Origin: Mycobacterium barrassiae
GTDB taxonomy: Bacteria > Actinomycetota > Actinomycetes > Mycobacteriales > Mycobacteriaceae
Direction of reading: 5' to 3'
NCBI RefSeq assembly: GCF_025822765.1
Contig: NZ_JACKUK010000025.1
Span: forward strand, 63,084 to 127,083
DNA length: 64,000 nucleotides
Shown here: positions 9,629-64,000 of the stretch, in pieces
How the letters are laid out: the number at the start of each line of letters is the position of its first letter
How positions within the stretch are numbered: position 1 is the first letter of the stretch
Translations under genes and position numbers: made by a program
The notes under the pieces: generated by a model
Told to the model about the DNA's origin: nothing
What the model saw: the letters and a program-made list of their open reading frames with translations, nothing else
Database searches by the model: none

Positions 9629-10029
9629 ACGGCGACCCCGACAGGGCGGTTGACAGCGTCCACCGGAACGATCTCCTTGCCCAACGGCACCAACGAGATG
9701 GGCACCATCTTGAGATTGGCCAACGCCAGGGGGATGCCGATGATCGTGACCGCCATCGCCACCGACGTGATGATGTGGCCGACGGCCAGCCAGATGCCGA
9801 ACAGGATGACCCAGATGACATTTCCGATCAGCGCGCCCGGACGCGTCCCGGGTTTCTCGACGACCGTGCGGCCGAACGGCCACAACGCATAGGACGCGAT
9901 CCGCAGCGCGGCGAACCCGAACGGGATCGTGATGATCAGAACGAAACAGATCAGGGCCGCGAGCAGGTAGCCCAGAGCCAGCCAGAGACCGCCGAAGAGC
10001 AACCATATGACGTTCAGGATCAGACGCAT
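9625..10029 (-). CDS. YccF-domain membrane protein
   Basis: Small integral membrane protein (134 aa) with two related YccF-type halves: MRLILNVIWLLFGGLWLALGY and a later GNVIWVILFGIWLAVGH, each followed by a hydrophobic ITIPFG/ITIIGIPLA helix and a short polar segment. Function is unknown; it corresponds to Rv0870c. An excellent ribosome site (CTGGAGGAAAG) immediately precedes the ATG, which fixes the start over a longer frame. It is coupled to moaA by an ATGA overlap, but a role in molybdenum metabolism is not established. Confidence 0.85.
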   Translation of the reverse strand: MRLILNVIWLLFGGLWLALGYLLAALICFVLIITIPFGFAALRIASYALWPFGRTVVEKPGTRPGALIGNVIWVILFGIWLAVGHIITSVAMAVTIIGIPLALANLKMVPISLVPLGKEIVPVDAVNRPVGVAV

Positions 10030-10174
10030 CTTTCCTCCAGCGGTGGCTCCAGGGTACCGAGTAAAGGGGGTGAGGCAGGGTGGAGGGCCGAGTAAGATCA
10101 CGATCGACGCGTCCCGGCGCACGGGACGCTTTCCTTATGTTCAGTGCTCTTAGAAGACAAGCAGGTGAGGACCA

Positions 10175-10585
10175 GTGCCGACCGGCCGGGTTAAGTGGTA
10201 CGACGCCGAAAAAGGCTTCGGGTTTCTGTCGCAGGAAGAGGGCGAGGACGTTTACGTCAGGTCCTCCGCGCTCCCTGCCGGTGTCGAGGGGCTGAAGGCC
10301 GGACAGAAGGTCGAGTTCGGCATGGCCGCCGGCCGTCGCGGACCACAGGCGTTGAGCGTGAAGATCATCGACTCGCCGCCGAGCCTGACGCGCACCCGGC
10401 GGGAGGCCGCCGCCGCGGAACACAAGCACACGCCCGACGAGCTGCACGGCATGGTCGAGGACATGATCACGCTGCTGGAGAGCGCCGTGCAGCCCGAGCT
10501 GCGCAAGGGCCGCTACCCCGACCGCAAGGTTGCGCGGCGGGTGTCCGAGGTGGTCCGCGCCGTCGCACGCGAACTCGACGCCTGA
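10175..10585 (+). CDS. cspB: Cold-shock-domain protein CspB
   Basis: Nucleic-acid-binding protein with an N-terminal cold-shock domain (residues 1-65): [18 protein letters not shown] contains the RNP-1 motif KGFGFL, while RNP-2 reads DVYVRSSAL instead of the usual VFVHxSA. A C-terminal extension of about 70 residues, Arg- and Glu-rich and predicted helical, makes the protein 136 aa, twice the size of a simple Csp and as in M. tuberculosis CspB (Rv0871). The GTG start has AGGTGAGG seven bases upstream. Confidence 0.9.
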
Positions 10586-10612
10586 TCTTCGGCCTCCGGG
10601 CATGCTGGAGGC

Positions 10613-11617
10613 ATGAGCTATGTCGCCAGCGGAGGCGAGTTCAACCGCGATACCAACTACATCACCACGCGAATCACCGCCGACGGCCGCGACGGATATC
10701 CCGTCGAGTCCGGCAGATACCGGTTGGTGGTCGCACGGGCCTGCCCGTGGGCCAACCGGACGATCATCGTGCGTCGGCTGCTGGGCCTGGAAGACGCTCT
10801 CTCCATTGGCTTTTGCGGTCCCACGCACGACCAGGACAGCTGGACGTTCGACCTTGACCCCGGCGGTGTCGACCCGGTCCTGAAGATTCCGCGGCTGAAG
10901 GACGCCTACCTCAAGCGGTTCCCGAACTACGAGAAGGGCATCACCGTGCCCGCGATCGTCGACGTGCCGACCGGTGAGGTGGCAACCAACGACTTCGCCC
11001 AGATGACGCTGGACTTCTCCACCGAGTGGACCGAATTCCACCGTGACGGCGCGCCGCAGCTGTACCCCGAACCACTGCGCGACGAGATCAACGACGTCGC
11101 CCAGCGCATCTACACGGAGGTCAACAACGGCGTGTATCGGTGCGGCTTCGCCGGCTCCCAGGACGCCTACGAAAAGGCCTACGACCGGTTGTTCACCGCG
11201 TTGGATTGGCTGTCGGAGCGGTTGCAGAATCAGCGATACCTGATGGGCGACACCATCACCGAGGCCGATGTGCGGTTGTTCACCACGCTGGCCCGGTTCG
11301 ACCCCGTGTACCACGGCCACTTCAAGTGCAACCGGAACAAGCTCTCGGAGCTACCGGTGTTGTGGGCCTACGCCCGCGACCTGTTCCAGACCCCGGGATT
11401 CGGGGACACCATCGATTTCGTGCAGATCAAACAGCACTACTACATCGTGCACTCCGACATCAATCCGACGCAGATCGTGCCGAAGGGCCCGGACCTGTCG
11501 AACTGGCTCACCCCGCACGGCCGGGACGCGTTGGGCGGCAGGCCGTTTGGCGATGGCACCCCGCCGGGTCCCACGCGCGAGGGCGAGCGGGTGCCCGCCG
11601 CTCATTCCGCGGGCTGA
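10613..11617 (+). CDS. Glutathionyl-hydroquinone reductase-like GST (Xi class)
   Basis: Member of the YqjG/ECM4 (Xi-class) transferase family (334 aa). The catalytic cysteine motif ACPWANR of these glutathionyl-(hydro)quinone reductases is present near residue 43, followed by the thioredoxin-like VPAIVD segment and a helical C-terminal domain containing LMGDTITEADVRLFTTLARFD. The family reduces glutathionylated quinones, but mycobacteria make mycothiol rather than glutathione, so the physiological thiol is uncertain. A GGAGGC site precedes the ATG. The 3' end overlaps the convergent DUF2771 gene by 16 bases. Confidence 0.88.
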   Translation: MSYVASGGEFNRDTNYITTRITADGRDGYPVESGRYRLVVARACPWANRTIIVRRLLGLEDALSIGFCGPTHDQDSWTFDLDPGGVDPVLKIPRLKDAYLKRFPNYEKGITVPAIVDVPTGEVATNDFAQMTLDFSTEWTEFHRDGAPQLYPEPLRDEINDVAQRIYTEVNNGVYRCGFAGSQDAYEKAYDRLFTALDWLSERLQNQRYLMGDTITEADVRLFTTLARFDPVYHGHFKCNRNKLSELPVLWAYARDLFQTPGFGDTIDFVQIKQHYYIVHSDINPTQIVPKGPDLSNWLTPHGRDALGGRPFGDGTPPGPTREGERVPAAHSAG

Positions 11618-12096
11618 GGCCAGAGCGTTCGGACCGACCACTCCGCGTGCCACGACGGATGCTCGTTGCCCTCCTCGTCGACGACGATGGTGGGCAGCTG
11701 CACGACGAAGCCGGTCAGCTTGCCGCGATGCGGGTCGACGGTGGGAATGGTCACCGCCAGTGTGGTGTCCGGCGGAAACTCCTCGAGCACGTCGGACCCT
11801 TCGTACTGGCGACCCAGGAGCCAGGGCGCTTTGGAAATCTCCTGCGGCACGGACAACTGCACCGGGTGCCGTCCGTCGACGCTGAGTTCGCCTACGGTTT
11901 CCGGGTTTTCGCAATCGTTGAGGTCGACGACGTTGCAGAAGCTGTAGGGCCCGACGCGCACCAGCTGGCCATCGGCGTAGGCGCTGATCTCGGGGTGCTT
12001 CGGCGGCGGATGTTGTGCGAGCCGCCAGATCAGCACCCCGGTCGCAGAGGACGCGACAATTACGACGGCCGCCAGCGCGGCCACGACGCGTTTCAC
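11602..12096 (-). CDS. DUF2771 exported protein (Rv0875c-like)
   Basis: Conserved mycobacterial protein of 164 aa with an N-terminal hydrophobic segment (VKRVVAALAAVVIVASSATG) acting as signal anchor or signal peptide and an extracytoplasmic domain containing two Cys (SFCNVVDLNDCEN) that could form a disulfide. Function unknown. The GTG start overlaps the stop of the upstream MFS gene by four bases (GTGA), so the two are coupled and may act together. Confidence 0.8.
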   Translation of the reverse strand: MKRVVAALAAVVIVASSATGVLIWRLAQHPPPKHPEISAYADGQLVRVGPYSFCNVVDLNDCENPETVGELSVDGRHPVQLSVPQEISKAPWLLGRQYEGSDVLEEFPPDTTLAVTIPTVDPHRGKLTGFVVQLPTIVVDEEGNEHPSWHAEWSVRTLWPQPAE

Positions 12097-13790
12097 TCCC
12101 GCGTCACCGCCGCACCGTCGGGGCGCCGCCCGCCCTCCTGCTCTGCGAGCACCGGACGGTTGCCGCCGAGCCCCGGTATCAACGAATCTCCGCGGTAGCT
12201 CACCACCGTCTGCGCGAGCCCGACGATCAAGACCGCGCTGACACCGGTGAACCCGACCCACAACTGGGTGTAGATCAGCACGCCGATCGCGCCGCCGGCC
12301 ACCCAGGCCAACTGCAGCAACGACTCCGAACGGCCGAAGGCCGATGCGCGTGATCGTTCGGGCAGATCGTCCTGCAAGGACGCGTCGAGTGACGCCTTGG
12401 CGATGGCGCTGGCACCGGAGGTGAACAGGGTGGCCACCGCGGCCACCAGGAGGTTGCCGGTGACGGCGGTGATCAGCGCGCTCGCGGTGACCACGAAGGT
12501 GCAGCGGACCACCATCTGCGCCGGGTGGCCGAGCTTCATGCGCGCACTGGTGAAGTTGCCCGCGAAGTTGCCGATCGCGGCGGCCGCGCCGATGAGGCCG
12601 AGGATGCGCAGCTGCTCCCAGCCGCTGGCGTCGTGCGCCTTGGCCACAAAGGCGGGGTAGAGGAAGAGGAAGCCCACCATCACCTTGATGGTGCAGTTAC
12701 CCCACAGCGCGGTGATGATGTTGCGGCCCAGTGGTTGTCGTGCAGACGACGAACCCCTGTGCGGTTCGGGATGGCGGCGCGGCTCACCCGTGCGGCCGTG
12801 GTAGCTCAGCGTCGCGGGCACTTCCCCTTCAGTGACCTCGACCCACTTGGGGATCCGCATGGACAGTGCCGCACCGACCACCGAGACGGCGACGACGACG
12901 TACAGCGCGCCGGGCAGCTCAACCACGCGGAAGAGGTACTGGGCGGCCGCGGCGACGGCGCCGCCGACCATGGTCCCGCCGAGCAGGCCGAACGTCGTCA
13001 GGCGGGAGTTCACCCGCACCAGGTCGATGGTCGGCGGCAGCACACGCGGCGTCATCGCGCTGCGCAGGACGCTGAATGACTTGGACAGCACCATCATTCC
13101 CAGGGCGCAGGGGTAGAGCACCCACGACGGGAAGCTGCCGGTGGCGCCGTCGAAGTTGCCGATCAACACCAGCACGAGGACGGTGCGCAGAATGAACGAG
13201 GTGGCAAGTGCGAGGCGGCGGCCGTGCTGCAGCCGGTCCAGGGCGGGTCCGATCAGCGGGGCGATGACGGCGAACGGTGCGATGGTGATGAGCAGGTACA
13301 GCGCCACCTTGCCCTTGCTCTCGCCGGAGGCCGCGGCAAAGAACAGGGTGTCGGCCAGCGCGATGGCCATGGCGGCGTCGACGGCGAAGTTGGCGACGAC
13401 GGGCCACGTCAGCGCGGTCAGCCCGGACTTGTCGGCGCCGTCGGCGGTGGCGGCGCGGTGCACCAGGCCGTACATCTTGGAGCCCATCTCGCGGCTGCGC
13501 TGCGCGGCGGCGCGCGTCACGGTGACCCGTTGGCCCGCCCCGGCTCCGACCGAATGCGGCGGCGGCGCGGACGTGTGCGGCCGTGCCGGTTCGTCCAGCG
13601 GTGGTAGCCACCGGTTGGCGCTCGGCGTGGGGTTGGACCGGCGCGACCGGCGGTAGCCGCCGTCGATGGGATCACTCGGGTAGTTGGCCATCCCGGGGTG
13701 TTCGCGCGCATCGGACGGTGGGCGCGGTGGGTAGTAGCGAGGGTCACGCCGACCCGCCGGGTCCCTGTCGTCTCGGCGCGGTCCGGTCAC
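12093..13790 (-). CDS. MFS-type multi-pass transport protein (Rv0876c-like)
   Basis: Membrane protein of 565 aa with about 115 residues of N-terminal Pro/Arg-rich cytoplasmic sequence, then some 12 hydrophobic helices; the first hydrophobic run is ALTWPVVANFAVDAAMAIALA and later ones include LYLLITIAPFAVIAPLIGPAL. The DRLQHGRR stretch between early helices resembles the MFS motif A loop. Substrate unknown. The start is a GTG. It is coupled to the DUF2771 gene and is divergent from the DUF3027 gene. Confidence 0.85.
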   Translation of the reverse strand: MTGPRRDDRDPAGRRDPRYYPPRPPSDAREHPGMANYPSDPIDGGYRRSRRSNPTPSANRWLPPLDEPARPHTSAPPPHSVGAGAGQRVTVTRAAAQRSREMGSKMYGLVHRAATADGADKSGLTALTWPVVANFAVDAAMAIALADTLFFAAASGESKGKVALYLLITIAPFAVIAPLIGPALDRLQHGRRLALATSFILRTVLVLVLIGNFDGATGSFPSWVLYPCALGMMVLSKSFSVLRSAMTPRVLPPTIDLVRVNSRLTTFGLLGGTMVGGAVAAAAQYLFRVVELPGALYVVVAVSVVGAALSMRIPKWVEVTEGEVPATLSYHGRTGEPRRHPEPHRGSSSARQPLGRNIITALWGNCTIKVMVGFLFLYPAFVAKAHDASGWEQLRILGLIGAAAAIGNFAGNFTSARMKLGHPAQMVVRCTFVVTASALITAVTGNLLVAAVATLFTSGASAIAKASLDASLQDDLPERSRASAFGRSESLLQLAWVAGGAIGVLIYTQLWVGFTGVSAVLIVGLAQTVVSYRGDSLIPGLGGNRPVLAEQEGGRRPDGAAVTRE

Positions 13791-13879
13791 AGTGAAGATT
13801 CTCCCCTATCGGGGCGACTGTGCGCGTGCAGCCGACCGGTGTGGCTAGCCGACCCGTGCGTGGGGCAAAATTGGGGGCA

Positions 13880-14677
13880 ATGGACAGCGTGACGGAATCT
13901 GCCGAGCAGGGCGCGGCGTCTCCGGCGGAGAATCCGTCGGCTCGCCCGGACCTGGAATCGGTGCTGCTGGGCGCCGTCGACCTGGCACGCGCTGCCGTCG
14001 TCGAATTCAGTGGTGAGGACACCGTCGGGGAGTACCTCGGCGCCGGCTTCGAGGATCCGACCGCGGCCACCCACCGGTTTCTCGCCGACATGCCCGGCTA
14101 CCGCGGCTGGCAGTGGGCCGTCGTCGTGGCCGCATGTCCCGGCGCAGACCACGCCACGATCAGCGAGGTCGTCCTGGTCCCCGGTCCGACCGCACTGCTC
14201 GCCCCGAAGTGGGTGCCCTGGCAGGACCGGGTCAAGCCCGGCGACCTGAGCCCAGGCGATCTGCTCGCACCGCCCGTCGACGACCCCCGGCTCGTGCCCG
14301 GCTACATGTCCAGCGGGGACCCGGCGGTTGACGAGGTCGCGGCCGAGGTCGGCTTCGGCCGCAGGCAGGTGCTCAGCCCGTGGGGCCGCGCCGACGCCGC
14401 CCAGCGGTGGCATGACGGCGAGTTCGGTCCCGGTTCGGCGATGGCGCGGTCGACGCGTCGCGTGTGTCGGGACTGCGGCTTCTATGTCCCGCTGTCGGGA
14501 TCGCTGGGGCTGATGTTCGGCGTGTGCGCGAACGAGATGTCCGCCGACGGTCATGTGGTCGACTCCGAATACGGCTGCGGCGCCCATTCCGATACCCCGC
14601 AGCCACAGGGCAGCGGGTCGCCGCTTTTCGATCCCTACGACGACGGCGTACTCGACCTGACCGAACCGGTCGACTAG
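13880..14677 (+). CDS. DUF3027 protein (Rv0877-like)
   Basis: Conserved actinobacterial protein of 265 aa, function unknown. It has an N-terminal alpha/beta region (YRGWQWAVVVAACPGAD), a central KWVPWQDRVKPGDLSPGDLL segment typical of DUF3027, and a C-terminal cluster of four cysteines (CRDCGFYVPL, then VCANEMS and GCGAHSD) that could bind zinc. The ATG with the GGGGGC upstream is preferred to a start 60 bases earlier that adds a low-complexity lead. Its TAG stop overlaps the stop of the convergent SRPBCC gene (CTAG). Confidence 0.8.
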   Translation: MDSVTESAEQGAASPAENPSARPDLESVLLGAVDLARAAVVEFSGEDTVGEYLGAGFEDPTAATHRFLADMPGYRGWQWAVVVAACPGADHATISEVVLVPGPTALLAPKWVPWQDRVKPGDLSPGDLLAPPVDDPRLVPGYMSSGDPAVDEVAAEVGFGRRQVLSPWGRADAAQRWHDGEFGPGSAMARSTRRVCRDCGFYVPLSGSLGLMFGVCANEMSADGHVVDSEYGCGAHSDTPQPQGSGSPLFDPYDDGVLDLTEPVD

Positions 14678-15129
14678 CTTTCGGCCGCGGCCTTGATCCG
14701 CGACAGCGATTCGTTCATCCCGTCGACGAGTTCGCGCTCAAAATTCGGCACGCCGCCCATCAATGCGTTGACCGACAGGTTGGAGAACGCAGACACCCCG
14801 TTTTCGGCATGGCGGCTTTCGATGACCCGGGTGCCGTTCTCGGTCGGCTCCAGCTCGTAGGACCAGACGGTCCCGTTCTGGTCGACGCGGAATGCCAGCT
14901 TCTTCTCGGGGATGAACTCCGTGATACGGCTCGTCGTCGGCCAGAAGAGGAACTTGCGGCGGTTGAAATTCAGTGTCCTGCTGCCTTGCCGCAACGGCCC
15001 GCCCAGCGCCTTCATCAATCGGCACTGCGGGCTCCACTGCGGCATCAGTCGTAGATCGGAGATCAACGACCAGACCTTCGTGACGGGGGCATTGATTTCA
15101 ATCTGCGCTTGCAACAGCGGCTCTGCCAT
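14674..15129 (-). CDS. SRPBCC/START-like lipid-binding family protein
   Basis: Protein of 151 aa with the polyketide cyclase/dehydrase (SRPBCC) fold: an IEINAPVTKVWSLISDLRLMPQWSP start, a central beta-rich part and a C-terminal helix (FERELVDGMNESLSRIKAAAE) that closes the hydrophobic cavity. The ligand is unknown; mycobacteria have many paralogs. A strong ribosome site AAGGAGGT precedes the ATG. Confidence 0.85.
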   Translation of the reverse strand: MAEPLLQAQIEINAPVTKVWSLISDLRLMPQWSPQCRLMKALGGPLRQGSRTLNFNRRKFLFWPTTSRITEFIPEKKLAFRVDQNGTVWSYELEPTENGTRVIESRHAENGVSAFSNLSVNALMGGVPNFERELVDGMNESLSRIKAAAES

Positions 15130-60669: not shown

Positions 60670-60852
60670 ATGGCAATCCTCGACAAGGTGAAGAATCTGC
60701 TGGCCAAGAACGCCGACAAGGTGGACACCGCGATCGACAAGGCCGGTGACATCGTCGACCAGAAGACGCAGGGCAAATACACCCAGCACGTCGATAAGGT
60801 GCAGGAGGCCGCCAAGAAGGCGGTCGACAAGAGCAACCCGCAGAACCCCTAG
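60670..60852 (+). CDS. Antitoxin, MT0933-like (Rv0909-like)
   Basis: Helical, Lys-rich 60-aa protein of the MT0933 antitoxin family (MAILDKVKNLLAKNADKVDT, then QGKYTQHVDKVQEAAKKAVDK). In M. tuberculosis Rv0909-Rv0910 is listed as a toxin-antitoxin pair. It precedes the SRPBCC-fold gene by eight bases. Confidence 0.88.
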   Translation: MAILDKVKNLLAKNADKVDTAIDKAGDIVDQKTQGKYTQHVDKVQEAAKKAVDKSNPQNP

Positions 60853-60860
60853 ACACACCT

Positions 60861-61307
60861 ATGGCCAAACTTTCCGTCTCCGTCGACGTCCCCCTTCCGC
60901 CGGAGAAGGCGTGGGAGTGCGCGTCTGATCTGCCCCGCTACCAGGAGTGGCTGAGCATCCACAAGGTGTGGCGGAGCAAGCTGCCTGAAACCCTTGAGAA
61001 GGGCACGGCCATCGAGTCGATCGTCGAAGTCAAGGGCATGCCCGTGCGGATCAAGTGGACCATCGTCCACTTCAAGCCGCCAGAGACCATCACCCTGGAC
61101 GGTAAGGGTGAGGGCGGCGTCAAGGTCAAGCTCATCGGCAAGGTGAAGCCCTCCAAGAAGGTCAACGAAGGGTCGAGTGTGTCCTTCGACGTGCACCTCG
61201 GCGGTCCTGCGTTGTTCGGACCGATCGGGATGGTGGTCGCCGGCGCGTTGAAGAGCGACTTCCGAGAGTCGTTGGACCGCTTCCAGGCCGTGTTCGCCCC
61301 CGCCTGA
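60861..61307 (+). CDS. SRPBCC-fold toxin (Rv0910-like)
   Basis: Protein of 148 aa with the SRPBCC fold (LSVSVDVPLPPEKAWECASDLPRYQEWLSIHKVW and a long C-terminal helix ADFRESLDRFQAVF-like). It is the ortholog of Rv0910, reported as the toxin partner of Rv0909. No nuclease motif is visible, which is unusual for a toxin, and the mechanism is unclear. Confidence 0.85.
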   Translation: MAKLSVSVDVPLPPEKAWECASDLPRYQEWLSIHKVWRSKLPETLEKGTAIESIVEVKGMPVRIKWTIVHFKPPETITLDGKGEGGVKVKLIGKVKPSKKVNEGSSVSFDVHLGGPALFGPIGMVVAGALKSDFRESLDRFQAVFAPA

Positions 61308-61354: not shown

Positions 61355-61921
61355 TTACCGGCGAAGTTGGCGACGCACCAGCTTCGCGAACTCGACCGTC
61401 GAACGGCGCACCGACTCGAATTCCAGTGACACCAGCAGGGTGTCCACCATCGCGAACGGCAGGGTGGTGGCCACCGCGCCTCGGCCGTACTCGATGTGCC
61501 ACGAGCCGGGATGGATGGTCATGCCTCGGGCTTGACCCCGCACCATGTGTGCGTGTTCGCCGGGTAACAGCGTCGAGGCGGTGAGGTCGTCCGATTCGAC
61601 GTCATACCAGTCGATCTGACCCGCGATCAGGAACTTGTGCACGTCCACATGCTTGTAGCGGCCCGAAAAGCCTTGAGTACCAGTGGGTGAGCCGAAGATG
61701 ACGATGTACTCCCGTGGGCTGAAGTAGAGAAACCTGACCTTGCCGAGGATGCCTCCCGCCTTACTGCCCACCCACCGTCCCGGCGCGGGATCGATGAGAT
61801 CGGGATACTCGTCGGCCAGCGCCTCGACGGCCCGGGTGATCAGCTCACCGTCCTCCAGCGGCAAGCCGACAACCTGCTTGGCCACCCTGCCCAGCACGTC
61901 CGGATCGATCTTGTACGCCAT
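61355..61921 (-). CDS. ERG2/sigma-1 receptor-like protein
   Basis: Protein of 188 aa that follows the eukaryotic ERG2 (sterol C8-isomerase)/sigma-1 receptor family over its full ligand-binding domain: LGRVAKQVVGLP, WVGSKAGGILG (about 50), EYIVIFGS and GTQGFSGRY (about 71-89), LLPGE (118-122), and HIEYGRGAVATTLPFAMVDT (142-161), including Glu144 where sigma-1 has its ligand-binding Glu172. The second ligand carboxylate (Asp126 in sigma-1) is not clearly kept. The N-terminal membrane helix of the eukaryotic proteins is absent. The ATG overlaps the P450 stop (TGATG); it is the last gene of the operon. A sterol or amphiphilic amine ligand is an inference. Confidence 0.85.
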   Translation of the reverse strand: MAYKIDPDVLGRVAKQVVGLPLEDGELITRAVEALADEYPDLIDPAPGRWVGSKAGGILGKVRFLYFSPREYIVIFGSPTGTQGFSGRYKHVDVHKFLIAGQIDWYDVESDDLTASTLLPGEHAHMVRGQARGMTIHPGSWHIEYGRGAVATTLPFAMVDTLLVSLEFESVRRSTVEFAKLVRRQLRR

Positions 61922-63147
61922 CAGCCGAACTCTATCCGCAGGCTCGTCGGCCCGCTGAGCCCCAGCAGCGGTTTCCAGGGCACCGATTCGGTGCGGGACG
62001 GGTTGGGCAGACGCTGGGACAGGATCTTCAGCGCCTCGGCGAGTTCCAGCCGCGCCAGGTTGGCGCCGAGGCAGTAGTGCACCCCGCCGCCGAAGGTCAG
62101 GATCGGCGGCGGGTCGTCGCGGGTGATGTCGAAGCGTTCCGGATCGTCATAGATCGCGCTATCACGGTTGGCCGCATAGGTATTGACGATGATGAACGTC
62201 TCTGCGGGGAACGTGTAGTCGTCGATCACGACGTCCTCGGCGACGCTCCGCACCGTGCTGCACATGGACGGTGAATGGCGCATCGTCTCTTCGACAGCGC
62301 GCATCGCCAACTCCGGCCGCTCCCGTAGCAGCGACCACTGCTCCGGGTGATCGCAAAGAACCTGCATCGACGCGGCGAGCTGGCTTCGCGTTGTATCCGT
62401 GCCCGCCACCAGAATGCTGAACGCCAGCATCCGCAATTCGCCGGTGTCGAGGCGATCGCCGGCATCCTCGATCCGGATGAGTTCGGAGAGCAGGTCGTCG
62501 GTCAGGTTTTGCCGCCGTGCCGCAACCATATCGTCGATGTAGGAGTCGAATTCGTCCCACGCCTTGAGGACGACGGGCTCCTCCTCGGCCAGGTTGCAGT
62601 CGAAGCTGACGATCTTGAAGATGTCGTCGGCCCAACGTGAGAACTGCCGCCAGTCCTCACGCGGCGCGCCGAGCAGCGCGCAGATGACCGGAATGGGGTA
62701 GGGGCGGGCGATATCCGCGACGAACTCGCAGCCCCCTGAGTCGGCCACCGCGTCGATGAGCTCGTTCACCACTGTGTGGATGGTGTCGTGCATCCGTGCG
62801 GTCGCCCGCGGCGTGAATGCCCGTGAGACCAACCCGCGCAGCCGGCGATGCTCATCGCCCTCCATGTTCAAGATGCTGCGAGTCACCCTGTCCCACAGCG
62901 GTCCTGACGTGATGCCGTGGGCGGAGAGGTGGATGCCCTTGGGTACGACGAACCGGGGGTCGCGCAGCACGGTGCGGGCCAGTTCGTACGAGAGCACTTC
63001 GGGGCCGATCGGCCCCAGCGCGATCGGGGCGGCCTGTTGCGCCGCGCGGAACTGCGGGTAGATCTCCTGCGGTGTGGCGGTGATGTCGTACTGCAGGGTG
63101 GGCAGGTCCGCGTCGAACACACTGGGTTTGGCGGCGTCGACGGTCAT
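61921..63147 (-). CDS. Cytochrome P450
   Basis: Soluble bacterial class I P450 of 408 aa. The I-helix oxygen motif is VAGTDTTRSQLA, the K-helix ExxR is EETMR, and the haem ligand is Cys359 in FGGGVHYCLGANLARLE. The N-terminal LNMEGDEHRRLRGLVSRAFTPR and its general form place it near steroid/terpene-oxidising mycobacterial P450s, but the subfamily is not named. The ATG overlaps the VOC gene (ATGA) and its stop overlaps the ERG2-like gene, a strong sign of a single pathway. Confidence 0.94.
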   Translation of the reverse strand: MTVDAAKPSVFDADLPTLQYDITATPQEIYPQFRAAQQAAPIALGPIGPEVLSYELARTVLRDPRFVVPKGIHLSAHGITSGPLWDRVTRSILNMEGDEHRRLRGLVSRAFTPRATARMHDTIHTVVNELIDAVADSGGCEFVADIARPYPIPVICALLGAPREDWRQFSRWADDIFKIVSFDCNLAEEEPVVLKAWDEFDSYIDDMVAARRQNLTDDLLSELIRIEDAGDRLDTGELRMLAFSILVAGTDTTRSQLAASMQVLCDHPEQWSLLRERPELAMRAVEETMRHSPSMCSTVRSVAEDVVIDDYTFPAETFIIVNTYAANRDSAIYDDPERFDITRDDPPPILTFGGGVHYCLGANLARLELAEALKILSQRLPNPSRTESVPWKPLLGLSGPTSLRIEFG

Positions 63148-63557
63148 GGCACGTTGGTGTCCAAGAGGGTCAGCGGAAGACCGAGCACGGACAGGTCGAT
63201 CTCTTCCAGGTGTGTGCCGTCGCCCGCCAGCTTCTGTCGGAATCGGATTGCTGCGCCGTACCTCTCGGCGACGGACTCCGCAGCCGAGGCCTCGGGGATC
63301 TGCAGCACGACGGTGTAGATCCCGTCACCCTTCTCGTCGAGAAACGTCTGCACATTAGCGGCGACGGCAACCGTCGATCCCGGAATCGGGCTGATCAACT
63401 CGACCCCTCGGTCCCAGTCCAAGCTCACGCGGACACCGAGCTCGGTCAGCTCCGCCGGCTGCAATGTGAAGCCGAGGTCGGTGAACATCCGCGCGACGGT
63501 CTCGTGCCGCTCAGGAGCAACGGCGAAAACAACGTGATGAAGCCGAGATTCGGTCAT
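63144..63557 (-). CDS. VOC-family protein
   Basis: Glyoxalase/vicinal-oxygen-chelate protein of 137 aa (LHHVVFAVAPERHETVARMFTDLGF, GVELISPIPGS, EKGDGIYTVVLQIPEASAAES). The usual metal His and Glu residues are partly visible (His in LHHVV, Glu in GVELISP). Its reaction is unknown. The start overlaps the stop of the upstream gene, and its stop overlaps the P450 start, so it is part of the same unit. Confidence 0.85.
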   Translation of the reverse strand: MTESRLHHVVFAVAPERHETVARMFTDLGFTLQPAELTELGVRVSLDWDRGVELISPIPGSTVAVAANVQTFLDEKGDGIYTVVLQIPEASAAESVAERYGAAIRFRQKLAGDGTHLEEIDLSVLGLPLTLLDTNVP

Positions 63558-64000
63558 TTCCGCACCAGACCGCGGGGCCGGACGAGGCCGAGGTCGAAAT
63601 GGGTGACCCAACCGGGCTGGGCGTCGCACACGTCGGGGATTGCGTTGATGGCCCCCATCGCGGTCCAGTCATACCCGGGATGGCGCATCGTTCCGTCGGG
63701 CCGGTCGACACCCTCGAGCGTGAGTTCGGTGGGAGGATCCCCTTCGATGACGATCCGGTACCGCGTCTTGCCCCAGTCCCACGACGGGTCGATCTTGTCG
63801 GGCTCGCTGGTCAGGTAGATGGCGTGGAAGACGATGAGGGGAGCGCCGTCGACCCATGCTGTCCATTCGTGATGCTGGGCTGCGACGGTTCCGCGCGGTA
63901 TCGCTCCCAGCTGGTGCGGAATGTCCTCGGTCGCGACGGCCGCCTTGACGTCGGCCGCCGTGACGTCATCAATGGTCACCCCGAGACCGTCGGCGATCAT
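63554..64000 (-). CDS. DapB-fold NAD(P)H oxidoreductase, 5' end beyond window
   Basis: The C-terminal part (148 aa) of a dihydrodipicolinate-reductase-like or diaminopentanoate dehydrogenase-like protein, usually about 350 aa. IADGLGVTIDDV, VAAQHHEWTAWVDGAPLIVFHAIYLT and the MGAINAIPDVCDAQPGWVTHFDLGLVRPRGL tail are recognised features of these NAD(P)H-dependent enzymes in mycobacteria. The reading frame continues beyond base 64000, so the start and Rossmann half are missing from the window, not from the gene. It overlaps the VOC gene by four bases. Confidence 0.8.
   Translation of the reverse strand: MIADGLGVTIDDVTAADVKAAVATEDIPHQLGAIPRGTVAAQHHEWTAWVDGAPLIVFHAIYLTSEPDKIDPSWDWGKTRYRIVIEGDPPTELTLEGVDRPDGTMRHPGYDWTAMGAINAIPDVCDAQPGWVTHFDLGLVRPRGLVRK

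Follow-up and report, generated by a model that had tools for sequence, protein, structure and literature searches.

The window, i.e. the whole stretch of 64,000 nucleotides of Mycobacterium barrassiae DNA that was analysed, ends in a set of overlapping genes on the reverse strand (Table 1), and the product of the gene at its downstream end belongs to the ERG2/sigma-1 family. The reading frame of 188 residues with its family motifs in order, as proposed in the first-pass annotation, is present, and the family assignment is upheld by the profile search. PF04622 matches residues 3-186 with 110.7 bits (E 8.1e-32, curated cut-off 21 bits) over most of the profile (positions 22-206 of 210), and phmmer finds the human sigma-1 receptor (5hk1) among the PDB sequences at E 9.8e-19. 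Membership in the Pfam family as such is already evident to anyone running Pfam. The coupling to the neighbouring genes is also real, with an overlap of one base (61921) between the ERG2-like and the P450a gene and of four bases (63144-63147) between the P450a and the VOC-like gene. The latter starts at a GTG at 63629 according to the list of open reading frames; a start at the ATG at 63557 gives a protein of 137 residues and a four-base overlap with the DAP1 gene. From the annotated pair of a VOC and a DapB-fold protein the DapB-like part stands, whereas the VOC label is weak, the Glyoxalase_3 match scoring 19.8 bits against a cut-off of 25.1. DAP1 is 355 residues long in the genome, where its continuation was read as locus L002.

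Table 1. Features of the ERG2-like gene and its neighbours; positions are those of the window.
Feature	Position	Strand	Evidence or remark
ERG2/sigma-1-family protein (clade A)	61355..61921	-	188 aa, ATG start
E144 codon, sigma-1 E172 position	61490..61492	-	E in 114/114 aligned rows
H142 codon, two residues ahead of E144 on the same predicted strand	61496..61498	-	H in 27/27 clade-A rows
K96 codon, sigma-1 D126 position	61634..61636	-	K in 27/27 clade-A rows
Cytochrome P450 (P450a), 408 aa	61921..63147	-	PF00067, 112.2 bits
VOC/glyoxalase-like protein, 137 aa from ATG at 63557	63144..63557	-	translation
DapB-like/DAP_DH_C oxidoreductase (DAP1), truncated by the window end	63554..64000	-	PF19328, 46.6 bits (whole protein)

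The operon continues past the window for about 3.3 kb, through one more DapB-like gene and one more P450 (P450b), to a membrane protein of 143 residues (smMEM), and for about 8.7 kb if the preceding cassette is included. Its order was derived from 20 kb around the gene and from 46 wide loci of relatives, for which the window's genes served as markers. In the fullest version a TetR, a membrane protein, another TetR, a VWA protein, a MoxR/NorQ-like ATPase, and a further membrane protein are followed by smMEM, P450b, two DapB-like proteins, the VOC-like protein, in some loci another P450, P450a, and the ERG2-like protein, whose gene is usually the final recognised one. This arrangement is accompanied by a divergently placed SDR gene and by one further DapB-like gene, the third. 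Pfam supports the MoxR-like ATPase (AAA_5/CbbQ_C), the DapB-like proteins, the SDR, and one TetR; the VWA match remains below its cut-off (20.4 versus 23.8 bits), the second TetR was assigned by eye, and P450b was assigned from PDB matches. The two membrane proteins of the cassette, which we had taken to be AveC-like (AveC1 and AveC2), do not match any Pfam or NCBIfam model at E 0.001, and for AveC2 there was no match in the PDB sequences and a single, non-significant one in Pfam at E up to 10. An AveC identity is thus without support in Pfam or NCBIfam. The nearest solved structures to the operon P450s include CYP125-type enzymes, CYP142, and others, and these are too distant for naming a substrate from them. 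DAP1 aligns from end to end with 6g1h, a native amine dehydrogenase of the DapB-like type (E 7.4e-18), but lacks the glutamate at the position where 6g1h reads IAEEMAFP. This glutamate is presumably the catalytic one. DAP1 may therefore not aminate ketones, and its assignment as an amine dehydrogenase is doubtful.

PF04622 matches were found in 46 of 198 genomes of the window's genus, in 13 of 397 genomes of the order, all of them within one of 85 genera, and in 5 of 396 genomes sampled from the phylum. The 46 genomes comprise 41 with a gene of the window's type (clade A), three with class B, and two with another type, the class assignments of G162, which has a broken copy, and of G175 resting on weak evidence. 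The class-B protein L003, which comes from the same genus, shares about 91% identity with records named as Mycobacterium, and the genus was taken to be Mycobacterium for this reason. Clade A was encountered here solely in the window's own genus, and its 14 rows in a tree of 64 rows split off with 100/100 support on a stem of 1.16. By similarity to the window protein, 33 loci fall into those with at least 172 bits (clade A together with the deeper L006 and L007) and those with at most 93 bits; class-B loci examined later reach up to 120 bits. A single scan with a mixed alignment query over one genome per species (84,980 species) yielded 144 bacterial relatives. Among the 80 listed of these, seven belong to Mycobacterium or the Mycobacteriaceae and 73 to other groups, with many Myxococcota and "Deltaproteobacteria" but also Chloroflexota, Methylococcales, Acidobacteriota, Bacillota, Planctomycetota, and more. 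The family therefore extends far into the bacteria, and its earlier description as mainly eukaryotic is not borne out by this count, which covers the bacterial side. Relatives of the window protein were absent from the plasmid and phage collections, as were relatives of the class-B protein L003 from plasmids and viral contigs, and an origin from mobile elements was rejected on these grounds. A transfer from a eukaryote to a mycobacterium is not supported either, the window's clade lying among bacterial rows of the tree. The tree constrains the direction of transfer weakly, however, since its rows do not include fungal ERG2 and sigma-1 is joined by a long branch (1.68) at a fork with a support of just 82/90.

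The check for conserved P450, VOC-like, and DapB-like neighbours that the first-pass annotation proposed had a supportive outcome. Among the 41 clade-A loci other than the window, the cassette of VWA, MoxR, and membrane proteins is present in 30, P450a in 22, the VOC-like gene in 23, DAP1 in 28, and P450b in 26. The ERG2-like gene overlaps the preceding gene in 22 of the 41 loci, by one base in 12 and by four bases in ten, and the partner is P450a in 19 and another P450 in two of these; in some loci P450a is swapped for another P450 or missing and the ERG2-like gene is retained. The smMEM marker of the cassette occurs in 103 of the 198 genomes of the genus, namely in 40 of 41 clade-A genomes and in 63 of the remaining 157 (p 1.2e-12 by Fisher's test, kinship ignored), and the lone clade-A genome without it is G162, whose copy is in two pieces. 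Although 11 of the 41 clade-A loci lie outside the cassette, ten of these are in genomes with smMEM elsewhere. Orthologues of the VOC-like protein, defined by matches of at least 175 bits (48 genomes; 63 genomes at E 0.001), are found in 29 of 41 clade-A and in 19 of 157 other genomes (p 4.2e-13, kinship ignored), so that 19 of the 48 do not have clade A. Ten neighbour regions were read from genomes that lack clade A or belong to a different genus. Three of them (L166-L168) contain the cassette, P450b, both DapB-like genes, the VOC-like gene, and P450a with no ERG2-like gene following, and in L167 the gene after P450a, no more than 30 bases away, is the Rv0910-like one that comes next in the window. 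Since the operon is found without the ERG2-like gene, the respective step is optional or replaceable, and we regard it as an optional addition to the pathway. Damaged clade-A copies also occur: that of G139 is split by an insert of about 1.7 kb containing an ORF of 468 residues, and that of G180 covers just profile positions 10-166.

In the predicted structure of the window protein, a cupin-like barrel is flanked by N-terminal helices and by two helices at the C-terminus, as expected for a sigma-1-like fold. The sigma-1 receptor has an N-terminal transmembrane helix, which, in agreement with the initial reading, is missing from the window protein and its relatives: no 19-residue segment within the first 45 residues exceeded a mean hydrophobicity of 1.6 in any of 27 clade-A and 85 other bacterial rows. 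Because the other bacterial proteins do not have this helix either, its absence does not distinguish clade A within the bacteria. That the protein would be a soluble version is doubtful given its fairly hydrophobic C-terminal helices, whose best 19-residue mean is 1.55 in the window protein and above 1.6 in eight of 27 clade-A rows. To judge from these helices, it may rest on the membrane surface and need not be freely soluble.

Clade A differs from the other aligned members of the family in the pocket. In the sigma-1 receptor the ligand amine is bound by E172, with D126 as the hydrogen-bond partner of this glutamate, according to the part of PMC6555132 available to us. The glutamate corresponds to E144 and is invariant across the 114 aligned rows. 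The pair of D126 and E172 is not retained in clade A, where K96 replaces the aspartate: all 27 clade-A rows have a lysine at this position; the aspartate is found in both sigma-1 rows and, of the 85 other bacterial rows, in 74. Among 43 loci read at greater width, from which the broken genes L153 and L154 were excluded, 39 have the K/E and four the D/E pair. The second change is H142, at the position of M170 in sigma-1; no other bacterial row has a histidine there (M in 47, A in 34, I in three, and F in one), and H142 is the sole histidine among the fixed polar residues that are specific to clade A. K96, H142, and E144 are each present in 40 of 40 sequences of a second set, which largely overlaps the first and includes the window. 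Compared to sigma-1 (SIGMAR1; 5hk1, 7w2b), H116 is also changed (F85), whereas the pocket positions Y72 (sigma-1 Y103), F76 (F107), Y89 (Y120), and L154 (L182) are unchanged. H142 and E144 are two residues apart on one predicted strand (140-148), so that both should face the interior of the barrel as E172 does, and a contact between K96, H142, and E144 would follow from the alignment together with the fold match. The clade-A genes are under purifying selection with a median dN/dS of 0.16 (665 pairs, 37 genes), and the pocket therefore looks remade rather than decayed. A lysine at this place would predict weak or absent binding of cationic sigma ligands.

Sterol synthesis by the host is unlikely. 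None of 27 genomes of the window's genus, 24 of which belong to the 41 clade-A genomes, matched the oxidosqualene cyclase model TIGR03463, which in a control set gave matches in two of 14 known genomes, below its cut-off. Because of these 24 negative genomes, sterol synthesis by the clade-A hosts seems improbable and was rejected; this leaves room for an exogenous sterol. The situation differs for class B, where 24 of 42 genomes (L046 left out) match the model with at least 390 bits and four pass the curated cut-off of 851. One Mycobacterium reached via a class-B locus (L040, G584) has a match of 200 bits, below the cut-off, a level that we take to represent a squalene-hopene-type cyclase. Bacterial members of PF04622 are thus also found in genomes with probable sterol synthesis. 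Class B with its aspartate and glutamate fits the role of a sterol isomerase, whereas clade A is at odds with sterol synthesis by the host. In the portions of the literature available to us, Enhygromyxa salina is described as a cholesterol producer with homologues for nearly all steps of the eukaryotic pathway (PMC10202945), a Calothrix cluster contains a homologue for C-8 isomerisation, named by its step only (PMC10202945), and an EBP homologue is reported for Nannocystis (PMC10152446). With regard to the initial interpretation, the idea of an ERG2-type sterol isomerase with affinity for sigma drugs is accordingly weakened, the aspartate being a lysine in 27 of 27 rows and 39 of 39 loci and no cyclase being found in the 24 genomes.

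What could such a pocket do? The chemistry of ERG2 is thought to proceed through a carbocation. A lysine next to the glutamate would disfavour such an intermediate, so that an enol or enolate is the better guess. Oxygenases and an SDR in the operon make ketones likely intermediates, and structures of sigma-1 in complex with progesterone and DHEA sulfate are available (titles of the PDB entries), which means that the fold admits steroid ketones. The substrate might thus be a hydrophobic ketone or aldehyde of terpenoid or steroid size, made by the P450 and SDR enzymes of the operon. K96 would grip the substrate oxygen, or form an imine, and thereby lower the pKa of the adjacent C-H; placed opposite E144 it would stabilise the enolate or hold the imine, and E144 and H142 could relay the proton across the barrel, with a double-bond shift or the inversion of a carbon as result. 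The protein would then be a keto double-bond isomerase or an epimerase acting on a hydrophobic ring. Our leading reading, at a little under even chances, is that of an enzyme which probably isomerises a hydrophobic ketone made by the operon P450s, moving a proton in the process. K96 could also have a role in binding instead of catalysis.

It is conceivable, though unlikely, that the protein has kept the action of ERG2. E144 would then be the base and some other residue the acid in shifting a carbon-carbon double bond of an exogenous sterol or triterpenoid via a carbocation, and the product would be oxidised by the P450s. The predicted fold and the glutamate are shared, most other bacterial members retain both the aspartate and the glutamate, and the cyclase matches in the class-B genomes point in the same direction. 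In clade A, however, the invariant lysine would put a positive side chain unfavourably beside the forming cation, and none of the 24 genomes searched gave a cyclase match. A non-catalytic lipid binder or carrier that delivers a hydrophobic substrate to the P450s, comparable to the ligand-binding sigma-1 without a known reaction, must be considered improbable as well. Steroids and drugs are among the ligands in the solved sigma-1 structures (entry titles), and 21 of the 22 gene overlaps are with P450s, but a fixed trio of a basic, an imidazole, and an acidic residue is seen more typically in active sites than in carriers, and the gene is retained at the 19 of 41 loci that have no P450a.

Another enzyme built on the same pocket is quite improbable; it could be a lyase, dehydratase, retro-aldolase, or decarboxylase with K96 as Schiff base, or a metal enzyme with H142 and E144 as ligands in the cupin barrel. 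Cupin metal sites usually require three or four ligands, and a lone clade-specific histidine argues against the latter. It is hard to imagine that the gene is a mere passenger without a function in the pathway. Its presence in about a fifth of the genomes (41 of 198) and the damaged copies in G139, G162, and G180 would be in line with this, but the low dN/dS, the fixed pocket residues, the coupling by one or four bases, and the almost complete co-occurrence with smMEM oppose it, and the only clade-A genome without the marker has a broken copy. The full picture of a sigma-1/ERG2 fold rebuilt in mycobacteria, with a K-H-E pocket that converts a terpenoid- or steroid-like ketone through an enolate or imine as one step in an undescribed pathway of P450s and a MoxR/VWA-dependent membrane oxygenase, is a tentative proposal that we consider doubtful as a whole.

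In contrast to sigma-1, the window protein comes with bacterial operon partners. With the fungal sterol C-8 isomerase ERG2 it shares the Pfam family PF04622 and the glutamate present in every aligned row; clade A differs from ERG2 in that the 24 host genomes searched gave no cyclase match. The change from aspartate to lysine refers to the comparison with sigma-1 and the bacterial rows. The solved structures at the match level of sigma-1 are all sigma-1 receptors and none is labelled ERG2. Class B and a third type (Myxococcota, Methylococcales, and others; L003-L005, L032-L113) agree with clade A in the glutamate and in lacking the N-terminal helix, but keep the aspartate in 74 of 85 rows and have the histidine in none. 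Their surroundings differ as well, at least for class B, where 83 loci (44 longer than 15 kb) show a P450a-like neighbour once (L155), an SDR in ten cases, and a DAP or VOC match in none. Among the matches listed, mostly from open-access literature, there was no paper on a mycobacterial ERG2-like protein or on the D-to-K and M-to-H changes; the isomerase terms searched for do not appear in PMC12004948, and no bacterial ERG2 was found in the part of PMC8172173 available to us.

An old fold has seemingly been turned to a new chemical use here, combining the shape of sigma-1 and ERG2 with an altered pocket and an operon of oxidising enzymes. If true, an enzyme with a K-H-E pocket would be the third activity of a fold known as sterol isomerase and receptor. 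The role of the sigma-1 pocket beyond drug binding is still debated. A compact bacterial relative that has no N-terminal membrane helix, with a naturally swapped pocket and a genomic context hinting at the substrate class, offers a direct probe of the fold's glutamate, and also of the question if the barrel acts in general as an acid-base site. The 144 bacterial relatives, finally, bear on the origin of the eukaryotic ERG2 and sigma-1 proteins.

Besides clade A, the Mycobacterium clade of the ERG2-like gene with lysine at the column of sigma-1 D126, the genus contains a further, highly divergent PF04622 type (loci L033 and L148, genome G053), which has an end branch of 2.34 in the tree and retains the equivalents of both D126 and E172. 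A neighbouring ORF, TetR-like by eye, is common to nine of the ten Mycobacterium loci of class B, a group of other bacterial PF04622 proteins (L034-L039 and L155-L157, the exception being L040), and no DAP or VOC matches were found near any of these class-B loci. Among the 85 other bacterial rows of the alignment, 11 have F, A, or M at the D126 column (L048, L052, L057-L059, L063, L067, L081, L082, L084, and L087). In each of these an Asp is located a few residues before the column, and the substitution perhaps represents either an alignment shift or an additional pocket type.

The clade-A gene of genome G139 is split by an insert of about 1.7 kb with a 468-aa ORF that resembles an IS1380-type transposase, and the pieces of the gene were read separately. 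In the window, the adjoining antitoxin and toxin genes converge on the ERG2-like gene, and an Rv0910-like match is close to 21 of the 41 other clade-A loci.

Features of the window and of related loci
Feature	Position	Strand	Evidence or note
MT0933-like antitoxin, small	window 60670-60852	+	PF14013, 72.4 bits
Rv0910-family toxin	window 60861-61307	+	NF047960, 180.9 bits
Cassette: VWA-like protein, MoxR/NorQ-like ATPase, pair of similar membrane proteins, 143-aa membrane protein	L002 (wider region) 9961-15120		upstream of the window's end
Insert in G139 clade-A gene	L153 12776-14454		

The two similar membrane proteins of the cassette, one of which (working label AveC2) has 246 aa, have no match in Pfam or NCBIfam at E 0.001. 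The 143-aa membrane protein is present in 103 of the 198 genomes of the genus, its best copies being 79-93% identical in most and 53-70% in others. At L171 and L165 the cassette is present without matches to the P450 and DapB markers of the ERG2-like operon. Speculatively, the cassette may encode an undescribed metal-dependent membrane oxygenase together with its assembly proteins.
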